A stretch of DNA of 64,000 nucleotides from Robbsia andropogonis (GTDB lineage Bacteria > Pseudomonadota > Gammaproteobacteria > Burkholderiales > Burkholderiaceae): contig NZ_LAQU01000002.1 in assembly GCF_000970345.1 (NCBI RefSeq), positions 1 through 64,000 of the forward strand, written 5' to 3'. This document shows, piece after piece, positions 40,182 through 44,304 of the stretch. Positions within the stretch are counted from its first letter, which is position 1. The number at the start of each line of letters is the position of its first letter. Below the pieces are notes generated by a model. That model saw only the letters and a list, made by a program, of their open reading frames with translations. It searched no databases and was not told where the DNA came from. The position numbers were made by a program, and so were the translations under genes.

Positions 40182-41027
40182 ATGAAACTGTGCCGCTTTG
40201 GCGCACCGGGCGAAGAGCGCCCCGGCCTCGTCGATCCCCAAGGACGAATTCGCGATCTTTCCGCCCACGTGGCCGACATCGATGGGAGCCAACTGTCACC
40301 GAAACGTCTCGCTGCGATTGCCGCGCTGTCGCTCGACATGCTGCCGATCGTCGAAGGGGCTGTGCGCTATGGGCCTCCTGTGAAGAGCGCTTCAAAATTT
40401 ATCGCCATCGGCACTAACTACCGCGATCACGCAGAGGAAGCAAACCTGCCGATACCCGATGAACCATTGGTATTTTTCAAAGCGATCAGTTGCTTATCCG
40501 GACCGAACGACGACATCGTGCAACCTCCGCACTCCACCAAACTTGATTGGGAGCTGGAGCTGGGCGTCGTCATCGGCACACGCGCTCGCTATGTCAGTGA
40601 GGCGGACGCGCTGGATCACGTCGCTGGCTACACGATTGTGAATGACGTGACAGATCGCGGCTTTCAGTTTCAGAGCTCGCAATGGGACAAAGGCAAGGGC
40701 TGCGACACTTTTGGCCCGGTCGGCCCCTGGTTGGTCACGCGGGACGACATCCCCGATCCGCACAATCTCGATATGTGGCTGGAAGTCGATGGCGTGCGCA
40801 GACAGGCAGGCAACAGCAAAACGATGATTTTTAGCGTACCCCAGATCGTCTCGTATCTTAGCCACTACATGACCCTGGAACCAGGCGACATCATTTGCAC
40901 CGGAACGCCACCGGGCGTTGGTCTAGGCATCAAGCCCACACCGATTTTCTTGAACCAGGGTGAAACGGTCCATCTTTGGATTGATGGCCTCGGCGAACAA
41001 CGCCAGAAGGTGATCGCCGCGCGATAG
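40182..41027 (+). CDS. fumarylacetoacetate hydrolase (FAH) family protein
   Basis: The 281-residue protein has the FAH fold with divalent-metal ligands in LDWELELGVVIG (two Glu) and VNDVTDRG (Asp), and the lid segment FIAIGTNYRDHAEE. The family includes acylpyruvases, 2-keto-3-deoxy-L-fuconate/ulosonate hydrolases and oxaloacetate decarboxylases. The block SSQWDKGKGCDTFGPVGPW is common in the ureidoglycolate lyase-like and 2,4-diketo-3-deoxy-L-fuconate hydrolase group. AAAGGA lies 7 bases before the ATG. It is divergently paired with the GntR regulator, which probably controls it. Confidence 0.92.
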   Translation: MKLCRFGAPGEERPGLVDPQGRIRDLSAHVADIDGSQLSPKRLAAIAALSLDMLPIVEGAVRYGPPVKSASKFIAIGTNYRDHAEEANLPIPDEPLVFFKAISCLSGPNDDIVQPPHSTKLDWELELGVVIGTRARYVSEADALDHVAGYTIVNDVTDRGFQFQSSQWDKGKGCDTFGPVGPWLVTRDDIPDPHNLDMWLEVDGVRRQAGNSKTMIFSVPQIVSYLSHYMTLEPGDIICTGTPPGVGLGIKPTPIFLNQGETVHLWIDGLGEQRQKVIAAR

Positions 41028-41448
41028 CTGTCGCGGAGCCGGTGGTAACGAGAGGGGAGAAGGTATGTGATCCTCTCGTCGCCAGCAATGCATCTCTTAT
41101 CCCAACCAGGGACATCACAAATGACCTGCAAACGCGATGGCGTCTGCTTCGCGATCGTGGGCACGTATGCTCTTATCCGTTCGAACCCGGCACCGCATTG
41201 GATCGCCGGGCGCTTACTCAAATTCGGCCTGAGCGGTCGCTCTGCACGAGGTCTATCGATGCCCGTTGTCGGCAAGAAAACGGTCGTTAACCATCCGGTC
41301 GGAAAATTTGTGGCGCGGGGTCCGATACCGACCCGTTTGAGTCACTCAGCTAGCATGGGCGCCGGTCCACTACCGCACCGATATAAGACATTCGCATGCA
41401 GCGCTGCAGTCACTAGCATCAGTAGCTGCCGAGACGACATCCATCCGT
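41028..41448. other. intergenic region with no recognised gene
   Basis: The 421 bases between the convergent FAH and HEPN genes hold overlapping ORFs on both strands (for example 41067-41507, plus), whose products show no domain and are rich in Ser, Arg and Pro. I consider them spurious. No terminator with a T tract is visible. Confidence 0.5.
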
Positions 41449-42558
41449 TCAGCCGCGCCACTGCACCGCAGTCTGACAATGGACCTTCGTGCCGACGACC
41501 TTGCTGATAAGTTCGTTTGCAGTGTTGATCGCGCGAGCCGCGTCGTCCCACATTACGGGACGGAGGCTATGTGCAAAATTGTTACGCGTCCGTCTTGCAT
41601 CATCCAAACGCGCGAGCATGTCGTCTTCAATTTTTTTATGAAAAGAGAGCATCTGCGTCACGATCGAAGCAGTGTAGTCGTGCCCTTCAAGCAGCATCCT
41701 GCGGCGATCGCGGTTCATCTCGGTGTGCCCGCCATTCCTTGCGTCTAGTTCATGTACAAGGCTCGCCCACACTTTATTGAGTGATTTTTCGATAACCGAC
41801 CAGGCAATAAGGTGGGCGGATTCGTATTGATGAAGTGTCAACTGATTGCCCGCAGTCAGGCAGAGTGCCAAGATTTTTAGGCCGTCGTCCTCAAACACTT
41901 CGCCACAGCGTGCCATCACATGCAATGCATGATCTAGGGCGGCTAGCTTTATATCCTGCGCCAAGAAGTTTGATCCCTTCACTTGGCTGATTGAAATGTC
42001 TGTGATAAGCCAGAGACCTTGCTGCTCAAAAGCCTTGCAGTAGCTAGTTGGATTCAGCGGCGATTGTACGGGTGTTCCGGTTTGCATCGTCTCAGCGATA
42101 CCCGAATGCAGCGCCATCAAGAATGCGTTCATGTATTGAAAGCGCTGATGGGCTAGTTCCTGGCGCTCTCGCATAATCTTCTCGTCAAACGTCGTACTTG
42201 GTACTTGCCGGAAGTTTGGAGACTTGTCAAAGTCAAAGATCAGAAAACCATCGCGGCGAGCTGATATGGGCACATTTGAGGGGCCCGTTTCTTGCCATAC
42301 GATTTCCGCCAGCTTACGGTTGACCTCATCCATAGACGTCATATCCCTAGGCGCGCTTTCGAAGCAATACTGGATTCCTCCGTAGAAGTAGACCGCCAGA
42401 GCATAGGGTGAGATTGCGAGCGAGTTTTCCATGCGCTTGAGGGGGCGTTTTTTGTCGAAAGTGTTCGAGATAATCTCATAGGCGACATCAAATGGGGCGC
42501 ATGACCGAAACGGAGCTCCGTTGAGCCATAAGTCAGCGCCACGCGAGCGTCGCTTAAT
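41449..42558 (-). CDS. HEPN-domain protein of unknown function, possible non-AUG start
   Basis: From the first ATG at 42432 the product has 327 residues. The C-terminal 130 residues look like a HEPN domain: a helix ESAHLIAWSVIEKSLNKVW and the ribonuclease-type motif Rx4H in RTRNNFAHSLRP (Arg 283, His 288). HEPN proteins are often RNases in toxin-antitoxin or antiphage systems. The N-terminal two thirds are unfamiliar. Coding-like sequence (GADLWLNGAPFRSCAPFDVA) continues upstream for 42 codons to an ATT at 42558, just after an in-frame TAA, without ATG, GTG or TTG. The gene may use ATT or have lost its true start. No intact partner gene is adjacent. Confidence 0.7.
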   Translation of the reverse strand: MKRRSRGADLWLNGAPFRSCAPFDVAYEIISNTFDKKRPLKRMENSLAISPYALAVYFYGGIQYCFESAPRDMTSMDEVNRKLAEIVWQETGPSNVPISARRDGFLIFDFDKSPNFRQVPSTTFDEKIMRERQELAHQRFQYMNAFLMALHSGIAETMQTGTPVQSPLNPTSYCKAFEQQGLWLITDISISQVKGSNFLAQDIKLAALDHALHVMARCGEVFEDDGLKILALCLTAGNQLTLHQYESAHLIAWSVIEKSLNKVWASLVHELDARNGGHTEMNRDRRRMLLEGHDYTASIVTQMLSFHKKIEDDMLARLDDARRTRNNFAHSLRPVMWDDAARAINTANELISKVVGTKVHCQTAVQWRG

Positions 42559-42595
42559 GGCCGATTACCGCCTCACAATGCTAGCGCGGAAATAA

Positions 42596-42845
42596 TCAGG
42601 AAGATTGTCCCCGATAGACTAGTTTGAGACTTTCGACTGAAAGGTCAAGATCGGCGACAATCGACACCGGTGTGTGTGGCGATTCTCGAGAAATAGATGA
42701 AACTAAATGAAGGGCATCGACACGTCCAACAAAGGAAACTCGTGCCAGGGTCTCGACTGCATCGGAGTGCGCACCAGGCCCGACTCGAACGGCAGGATAT
42801 TTTTCAAGGCGCTCCGGTTGGCGTTCCCGCCCGGGCCGCTTGATT
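42596..42845 (-). pseudogene. 3' fragment of an unknown gene upstream of the HEPN gene
   Basis: A minus-strand frame ending at 42596 encodes a protein-like tail, including SDAVETLARVSFVGRVDALHL and PVSIVADLDLSVESLKLVY. Upstream of about 42845 the frame runs into the end of the lipoprotein hydrolase gene on the same strand and loses its character. Its stop lies about 37 bases before the HEPN frame, so the two could once have been an operon. The left boundary is approximate, and no family is recognised. Confidence 0.4.
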
Positions 42846-43853
42846 GACGATCTCACTGAGCGCGTTTGCCTGTCGCGCATTGTCGGTAAGTCCGGTGAAT
42901 GTTTTCGTGATGAACGCGCTAGGCAAGCCGTCCATGCAAGCCTGGACTACGCGCATACCTGTCATCATCGTTTGGTGATGTTCGGCCCCGGTGCCGTTTA
43001 TCGCAATCTGATATGCCTCGATCCCTTTGTCCTTTACCGCCTCGACAAAAGCAGTCTGCGTGCTGAAAGGGACATTGCTGTCGGAAATCGAACTTACGGC
43101 AAACAAGCGAAAACCGGGCATCGGATGAATGGCATTCACGTGATCAATCGGATCCCAGACATTGCCGAATGACGTCCCGGTGGCATCGACACTTTGCCCT
43201 TTCAATTCGGCGCGGGCTTTTACGCTCAACACGCCCGAAGTGGGTACCGCGCACAACACGTCGTTTCTTTCCGCGATCAGCGCACCCACTAGCCCGCCAC
43301 CCCCACTTTGGCCGATCAGGCCGAATTCTCGAATCTCGTACCGTTGTTTCAGTTTGTCGATTGCCGCATTGATGACCGCGGTTTCATATCGCTGGCGACG
43401 TCTTTTCTGATCGCCGCTGGAACCGTCGGTTCCCGGTCGCCCCAGTAAAACCCATGCCATGTGGTCATGCGCCTGTTCTCTCTCGGCTTCATCGTAGAGA
43501 TCCCGAGGCGTGCGCTTCGCGTATCGCGGCCCTACCGCTCGCCCCGAAATCCAGTCGCCCTCCATCGCGACAATGGCGCGATGCGTCTTTCCCGCGACAA
43601 AGTCACTCGACGGATAGTATTTGATACATTCCGCAAAATCGGCGCCGTCTACCCATACGGTATCTGGCTTTAGCGAACAGGCTTCCCGAGTAGTGGTTGC
43701 ACCGGACAGCACTTCAGACGCGCTGAAATGATCATTCAAGCCATAGTGCGTCACTTGTGAAGCGCATCCTCCCAGCAGTACAACTGCCAACGCACCGCCA
43801 TGGACAATCCACCTCGATAAAACATCCCGTTTATTTTTCCTATGCGCTCGCAT
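42804..43853 (-). CDS. lipoprotein with an alpha/beta-hydrolase fold
   Basis: The ATG at 43853 gives a 349-residue protein with a lipoprotein leader ending in LLGGCAS (Cys near residue 26). The body contains a nucleophile elbow GQSGGGGLVGAL, a strand-loop acid candidate in SSISDSNVPF and a histidine pair in GAEHHQTM. These are consistent with a serine hydrolase of the prolyl-oligopeptidase/esterase class. The frame is open 58 codons further upstream, but that stretch is hydrophobic and charged without a site. Base composition is lower in GC than the ppc region, as for its accessory neighbours. The substrate is unknown. Confidence 0.75.
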   Translation of the reverse strand: MRAHRKNKRDVLSRWIVHGGALAVVLLGGCASQVTHYGLNDHFSASEVLSGATTTREACSLKPDTVWVDGADFAECIKYYPSSDFVAGKTHRAIVAMEGDWISGRAVGPRYAKRTPRDLYDEAEREQAHDHMAWVLLGRPGTDGSSGDQKRRRQRYETAVINAAIDKLKQRYEIREFGLIGQSGGGGLVGALIAERNDVLCAVPTSGVLSVKARAELKGQSVDATGTSFGNVWDPIDHVNAIHPMPGFRLFAVSSISDSNVPFSTQTAFVEAVKDKGIEAYQIAINGTGAEHHQTMMTGMRVVQACMDGLPSAFITKTFTGLTDNARQANALSEIVNQAARAGTPTGAP

Positions 43854-44304
43854 CGTGGCGTTCTTATAAAAATAAAATGGCAGACAAATTAACCCTATGT
43901 CGAGGCGGGTGCATATGCCTCGTGCTGGCATTGCCACGTTACTGAGGCTGGGGCGAGAAAACGGTATGTTGCCGACCCAGTTCAAAACAAGAATGGATTT
44001 TAGCCGACAAGCGTAAACTGTCACCACGTGTCAAGGCGGGCAACGCATGGATGCCAATGCGTCATCTCGCCAAGCCTGCCACTGGAGCGTGAAATGCCGT
44101 CGAATCACTCGAAAACATGACAGAAAGTCCCGGGCACGCAGCTGCGCTGAAAACTTCACATGCGCGATGCACGTTCTCGCGTTAAACCATCTCATGGCGC
44201 TTACCGCGACCATCACTAATACACCAGATCCGTCCGGGCGCCGGATATCGACGCCGCATAACAACCTCGCTTACGTGAAGATGCCGGGATGACCTGCCGC
44301 ACAG

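Follow-up and report, generated by a model that had tools for sequence, protein, structure and literature searches.

The window, the whole stretch of 64,000 nt of Robbsia andropogonis DNA that was analysed here, stems from an assembly of 6.2 Mb in 272 contigs. On its minus strand, a reading frame is open from an in-frame TAA codon at 42565-42567 to the stop codon at position 41449, and the first ATG of this frame is at position 42432 (Table 1). The gene is flanked by a converging gene for an FAA hydrolase (40182-41027, plus strand) and by a gene for an alpha/beta hydrolase (42804-44027, minus strand). Just upstream of the gene, a minus-strand frame of 94 aa (42596-42880) overlaps the end of the alpha/beta-hydrolase gene. 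This frame had no Pfam match at E ≤ 0.01, and its best plasmid match had an E value of 0.6. The 64-kb window contained no tRNA, Rfam at gathering scores gave no match in 40800-44300, and no sigma-70-like sites were found in 41028-42900 (shuffles give 1.2). Three short repeats flank the gene, two direct ones of 14 nt (93%) and 16 nt (81%) and an inverted one of 16 nt (94%), for which chance is the likeliest explanation at such length.

Table 1. Features of the predicted HEPN gene and its upstream region in the window.
Feature	Position	Strand	Basis
Gene for a 327-aa protein read from an ATG; predicted HEPN effector	41449..42432	minus	open frame; 46% identity to P. fungorum L004:8043-9032 (MAFFT)
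In-frame stretch without stops between ATT 42558 and the ATG; most likely an untranslated leader	42433..42558	minus	codon scores, loss of conservation
In-frame TAA, upstream boundary of the open frame	42565..42567	minus	sequence
Conserved N-terminal block (residues 1-78, containing RRDGFLIFDF) of no known family	42199..42432	minus	58% identity to G086
Predicted HEPN domain, residues 217-312, equal to the span of the Pfam HEPN_Swt1 match	41497..41784	minus	match below cut-off, PADLOC CARF_HEPN
RNNFAH (Rx4H motif), residues 283-288 of the ATG form	41569..41586	minus	R, N and H invariant in 5 of 5 sequences

Five relatives of the window protein were retained, from P. fungorum, P. caribensis and the genomes G1474, G688 and G086. 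The P. fungorum relative is full length with 46% identity, while P. caribensis (28% identity over 148 residues) and G688 are represented by the C-terminal half. The G1474 relative is split in two frames and the one from G086 comprises the N-terminal part only, so that some copies of the family have not been kept intact. The window protein shares 142 identical residues with the P. fungorum protein over 312 aligned codons. Over the same codons, the two genes differ at 125, 113 and 232 sites in codon positions 1, 2 and 3, respectively, which indicates that the window gene is under constraint at the protein level.

The initial annotation had described a coding signal that continues 42 codons upstream of the first ATG to an ATT codon, and had concluded that either a rare ATT start or a damaged 5' end was implied. 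We scored codon usage in overlapping windows of 42 codons with two models, one derived from eight window genes and one from the gene itself. With both models each of the 41 gene windows outscored the 42-codon extension. Its score lay within the range of open intergenic sequence: of 184 overlapping intergenic windows free of stop codons, 64% and 42% equaled or exceeded it with the two models. An earlier scoring with a different background also placed the extension below all windows of the gene (14 of 14). A stop-free stretch of 126 nt is unremarkable at this place, as it arose in 19.8% of cases when the 368 nt upstream were shuffled 5,000 times by mononucleotide. By tblastn against five related loci, no match of the extension was better than E 0.29, and comparison of the upstream DNA of the window with that of P. 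fungorum gave a local score of 10, which 131 of 300 shuffles reached.

The comparison to G086 located the boundary of conservation. In a gapless alignment 43 of 72 residues were identical from the Met of ATG 42432 on. The DNA differences in these 72 codons numbered 21, 14 and 43 at codon positions 1, 2 and 3; in the 22 codons before the ATG they numbered 19, 15 and 16. Since the bias for codon position is present after the ATG and absent in the preceding 22 codons, we concluded that the constraint begins at ATG 42432. The two relatives that reach the N-terminus, P. fungorum and G086, both have an ATG at the matching place and thus fit a start at the internal Met. In P. fungorum this ATG stands behind the Shine-Dalgarno sequence GAGGAG (-9.3 kcal/mol) and only 16 codons are open upstream of it; in G086 no strong Shine-Dalgarno sequence precedes it (-2.5). 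Judged by these sequence comparisons, translation of the window protein very likely starts at ATG 42432 and yields 327 residues. The upstream coding signal was therefore not borne out, and neither codon usage nor conservation lent support to a rare ATT start or a damaged 5' end.

One observation keeps a start at ATT 42558, or at another non-standard codon, among the alternatives. The 20 nt before ATT 42558 would pair with the anti-Shine-Dalgarno sequence at -9.0 kcal/mol, a value that falls between the 1% quantile (-9.3) and the 5% quantile (-6.4) of 2,000 random 20-mers, whereas the 20 nt before ATG 42432 reach 0.1 kcal/mol, which means no Shine-Dalgarno sequence. Values for five window genes ranged from -4.3 to -6.0. 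In addition, the 44 codons that precede the ATG are free of stops. Such a start would give a form of 369 residues, the 42 extra residues being a fast-evolving or lineage-specific leader that perhaps limits the expression of a toxic protein. However, the best pairing value is less striking considering that 43 codon positions were scanned, and a strong Shine-Dalgarno sequence is likewise lacking in G086, G688 (-3.0) and P. caribensis (0.3). The low codon score of the extension, the end of G086 conservation at the ATG, the lack of tblastn matches and the arrangement in P. fungorum also argue against the ATT, and we regard this start as improbable. Even less probable is a damaged 5' end, with the true start beyond the in-frame TAA and the present copy as a decaying remnant. 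An in-frame GTG (42576) three codons before the TAA could be such a start, and broken copies in the wider family (G1474 and G086) would be in line with decay. Against this, the conservation boundary falls at the ATG, and the body of the gene is co-linear with P. fungorum in one frame and under protein-level constraint.

The P. fungorum homologue (L004:8043-9035) is annotated from ATG 8283, 80 codons downstream of ATG 8043. Because the upstream ATG has a strong Shine-Dalgarno sequence and is followed by conserved N-terminal sequence, this annotation is probably too short.

An RNNFAH motif in a C-terminal HEPN domain had been proposed for the frame 41449-42567. The motif is real, and it follows the HEPN pattern Rx4-6H, in which R is usually followed by a polar residue. 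The residues R, N and H of R-N-x3-H were invariant in the window protein and in all four relatives that have the C-terminal half; P. fungorum has RNAFAH. We compared the C-terminal half with HEPN profiles. The C-terminal 173 aa of the window protein matched HEPN_Swt1 (PF18731) with E 7.6e-4 and 20.2 bits, below the cut-off of 27.5 bits. The PADLOC models CARF_HEPN (2.7e-4, spanning the motif), Csx1/Csm6 (4.9e-3) and PDC-M05B (0.013) also matched this half. For the P. fungorum protein, Pfam gave RiboL-PSP-HEPN (0.058) and DUF4145 (0.075), both spanning the motif, and CTD2 of ABC-3C systems (E 0.01), which ended just before the motif, while in PADLOC the candidate defence family PDC-M05B matched over the motif with 1.7e-4. 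The whole P. caribensis protein showed motif-spanning Pfam matches to DUF4145 (0.029), RiboL-PSP-HEPN (0.077) and HEPN_Swt1 (0.17), and G688 matched DUF4145 (0.081, spanning the motif) in Pfam and a CARF_HEPN model (0.046) in PADLOC. No Pfam model reached its gathering score for the window protein or any relative scanned. The C-terminal piece of G1474 and the G086 piece had no Pfam matches, P. caribensis and the G1474 pieces had no PADLOC matches, and a genome scan with PF18731 listed no match in G000 at E ≤ 1e-4. In the proposed search of the C-terminus against HEPN profiles, several HEPN models matched weakly over the motif, but no Pfam match reached its cut-off.

Profile comparisons connected the relatives to each other. 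The C-terminal profile of the window and P. fungorum proteins matched that of P. caribensis and G1474 (98.4%, E 5e-15, score 93.0, compared to 20.9 as the highest of 25 column shuffles) and also G688 (94.2%, E 1.2e-7, score 50.3, highest of 25 column shuffles 20.7). By this sequence evidence, the C-terminal halves of all five proteins belong to one family. Comparison with one HEPN_Swt1 member (L020) was not significant (0.2%, E 0.3) and covered 17 columns around the motif. E215 is a candidate for the conserved acidic residue of HEPN helix 2 and was invariant in the four full-length sequences aligned, window included; the window protein has no K or R four residues further on.

AlphaFold predictions from the single sequence resulted in mostly helical models of low quality, with a pLDDT of 41 for the whole protein and 51 for the C-terminal 168 residues. 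With this poor C-terminal model, Foldseek returned 51 matches at E ≤ 10 and none at ≤ 0.001, and VIA-align gave Z ≥ 2 for 136 of 159 chains with a best Z of 6.1. In both searches, the matches were assorted helical proteins, and no HEPN chains were seen among the best 50 rows of either search with this low-pLDDT model; these results were counted neither for nor against a HEPN fold. Sequence matches in the PDB were at chance level and were rejected (fucosidase, E 0.23; METTL16, E 0.74 with the three-row profile). Considering the convergence of individually weak profile matches and the conservation of the motif, we regard a HEPN domain whose Rx4H motif is intact as highly probable for the C-terminal half, as had initially been suggested.

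The N-terminal half had been described as matching no recognised family, and this description holds for the libraries searched. The window protein had no NCBIfam match at E ≤ 1 and no PHROGs match at E ≤ 5, and residues 1-81 had neither a Pfam match at E ≤ 5 nor a PHROGs match. Residues 1-78 show 58% identity to the G086 frame, starting from residue 1. As this block occurs in G086 without the HEPN half, it may be a separable domain, or the G086 copy may be truncated. In the G086 frame (L003:922-1464, minus strand), the HEPN half is missing and the N-terminal block leads into a tail in which short motifs are repeated. By eye, the N-terminal halves of the window subfamily, of P. caribensis/G1474 and of G688 share an RDG-like motif with a helix behind it. 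The N-terminal profile scores against P. caribensis/G1474 and G688 were 17.8 and 12.3 and did not exceed those of the shuffled controls, which reached up to 20.4 and 17.4. The suggestion of a new HEPN architecture stood in part: the N-terminal half is unmatched in three libraries, but a novel N-terminal domain in front of a HEPN domain is itself a described pattern (PMC3710099). What is new, the data suggest, is that a rare family joins a known effector domain to an N-terminal domain of unrecognised kind; there is no sign of a new kind of system.

The family is rare and patchily spread. With the source genome included in the counts, and with genome draws that are overlapping samples of larger groups, we found matches in 1 of 3 genomes of the genus, 2 of 299 of the family (3 of 398 with the three-row profile), 1 of 399 of the order, 2 of 369 of the class, the second of which was stop-ridden and dropped, and 2 of 398 of the phylum. 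Using the P. fungorum protein as query, 1 of 65 genomes of the G688 genus was matched, which was G688 itself. Two of 72,556 plasmid records matched and none of 50,697 phage records; four scans of viral contigs gave no matches or chance matches only. The search of named genomes, sensitive to close relatives only, yielded one locus, L002 (Myxococcales), which was rejected as chance; the match comprised 33 residues within frames of no relation. Also rejected as chance were the loci L018 and L019 from viral contigs, where the match is on the strand opposite to a phage frame of 210 aa, and L013 (G892), the stop-ridden match of the class, with eight stops. The HEPN protein of the G688 type has relatives on Azospirillum and Vibrio replicons (H14, NZ_CP032322.1, 33% identity, and H15, NZ_CP009620.1, 26% identity), and this sister subfamily therefore spreads further than the window subfamily. 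We found no description of the family in the open-licence literature, and the P. fungorum accession and locus tag appeared in no paper there.

Most relatives keep company with genes resembling those of defence systems or mobile elements. In P. fungorum, an annotated HNH gene (Pfam HNH, E 0.0056, below cut-off) is located 402 nt upstream, and a small hypothetical gene, the gene for a TrlF ATPase and, further on, BREX-1 pglX follow downstream. In G1474, a DUF4365 gene lies upstream at a distance of 40 nt. This gene and the frame-split relative form a stretch of about 2.9 kb (L015:4442-7741) between the 3' end of guaA and a second copy of 213 bp with 91.5% identity, a pattern as expected of insertion at the guaA 3' end. 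The G688 relative adjoins a tyrosine integrase, and a DUF4238 gene is found near the G086 piece. A weakly M48-like gene is present upstream of the P. caribensis relative, and the frames adjoining this relative are presumably IS66-like. Among seven neighbouring frames of the window gene scanned with Pfam, no defence or mobile gene was recognised. The alpha/beta-hydrolase gene has a relative in genome G015 with 79% identity over 306 residues, and the frame beside this relative is, by our reading, of the LysR type. None of seven other window proteins matched the same 14-kb stretch of G015, and a clean empty site was therefore not shown.

Taken together, we consider it fairly probable that the 327-residue protein read from ATG 42432 is a self-contained HEPN RNase effector. 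Its C-terminal HEPN domain would most likely be a metal-independent endoribonuclease, and its unrecognised N-terminal domain would have a regulatory role, with release on infection or stress. By this reading, the N-terminal half would sense a cue, or restrain the nuclease until infection or another stress occurs; the released HEPN half would cut cellular or phage RNA, and RNA cutting would stop growth, as with abortive-infection HEPN proteins. The analysis itself established constraint at the protein level, a likely start, a conserved motif, a rare family of patchy spread, and defence or mobile neighbours of most relatives; RNase activity, the N-terminal role and a function in phage defence are inferred. 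The effector encoded by the window gene would probably act against viruses or poison its own cell. In the published account of HEPN domains, R and H of the Rx4-6H motif make up an RNase site that needs no metal, and several abortive-infection proteins contain such domains, some of them behind varied N-terminal domains (PMC3710099). Standalone HEPN genes near BREX have been proposed as backup effectors (PMC12839542). It is conceivable, though rather doubtful, that the N-terminal half represents a new sensor domain, in an antitoxin-free, self-contained family of HEPN RNases that travels with defence islands among the genomes of Burkholderiales, one gene being enough both to detect infection and to shut the cell down.

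Two other functions were weighed. The protein could be the toxin of an unrecognised toxin-antitoxin pair, with the 94-aa frame at 42596-42880 or something unlinked as the partner. In HEPN-MNT systems, a partner neutralises the HEPN toxin (PMC7641770), and the close spacing of the DUF4365 gene and the G1474 relative resembles an operon-like pair. However, the 94-aa frame lacks matches at the thresholds given above and overlaps the end of the hydrolase gene, the upstream gene in P. fungorum is 402 nt away and of a different kind, and the seven neighbouring window frames have no Pfam match to a nucleotidyltransferase. We therefore consider such a pair unlikely. Slightly less likely still is a HEPN domain that acts as a regulator or binding module without RNase activity, as in MtlR or nucleotidyltransferase-linked families. 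Among HEPN families there are inactive ones and others in which the motif is only partly retained (PMC3710099, Table 1), but R, N and H are invariant in all five sequences here, and nucleotidyltransferase-linked families are often devoid of the motif (PMC3710099).

If the reading as a self-contained effector is true, an undescribed combination of sensor and HEPN domain joins the known single-gene RNase effectors, and a small protein becomes available for studying partner-free activation of a HEPN RNase. Once a relative is aligned, a leader that is open by chance can account for what looked like a non-standard start codon.

Among known proteins, the P. fungorum plasmid protein WP_253045811.1 (NZ_CP099649.1, hypothetical protein) resembles the window protein over its length from ATG L004:8043 and carries the same motif; it differs by the TrlF and BREX genes nearby and by the annotated start further in. 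HEPN_Swt1 is the sole Pfam match of the window protein and spans the motif, but the score is below the cut-off and the member L020 aligned over the motif region only. DUF4145 (PF13643; P. fungorum, P. caribensis and G688) and RiboL-PSP-HEPN (PF18735; P. fungorum and P. caribensis) gave weak matches below cut-off that span the motif in relatives, whereas the window protein itself matches neither of them. The adjacent MNT nucleotidyltransferase of HEPN-MNT toxin-antitoxin systems is absent from the window locus as judged by Pfam in the seven neighbouring frames. For Csx1/Csm6, the CARF-HEPN proteins of type III CRISPR-Cas systems, the PADLOC matches of the window protein cover the HEPN end only. 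A Bxe_C0808 HEPN family is listed in Table 1 of PMC3710099, and the main text of that paper names Bxe_C0808 once. The NTD-HEPN abortive-infection proteins AbiJ (AbiJ-NTD1 to 5) and ApeA are similar in layout alone, with a distinct N-terminal domain and a C-terminal HEPN domain with Rx4-6H. They were compared by their published description (PMC3710099), and the N-terminal half of the window protein had no Pfam match. Since a good number of HEPN domains with a novel domain in front of them are already on record (PMC3710099), the general picture is unchanged, and the window protein is best read as one more NTD-HEPN architecture.
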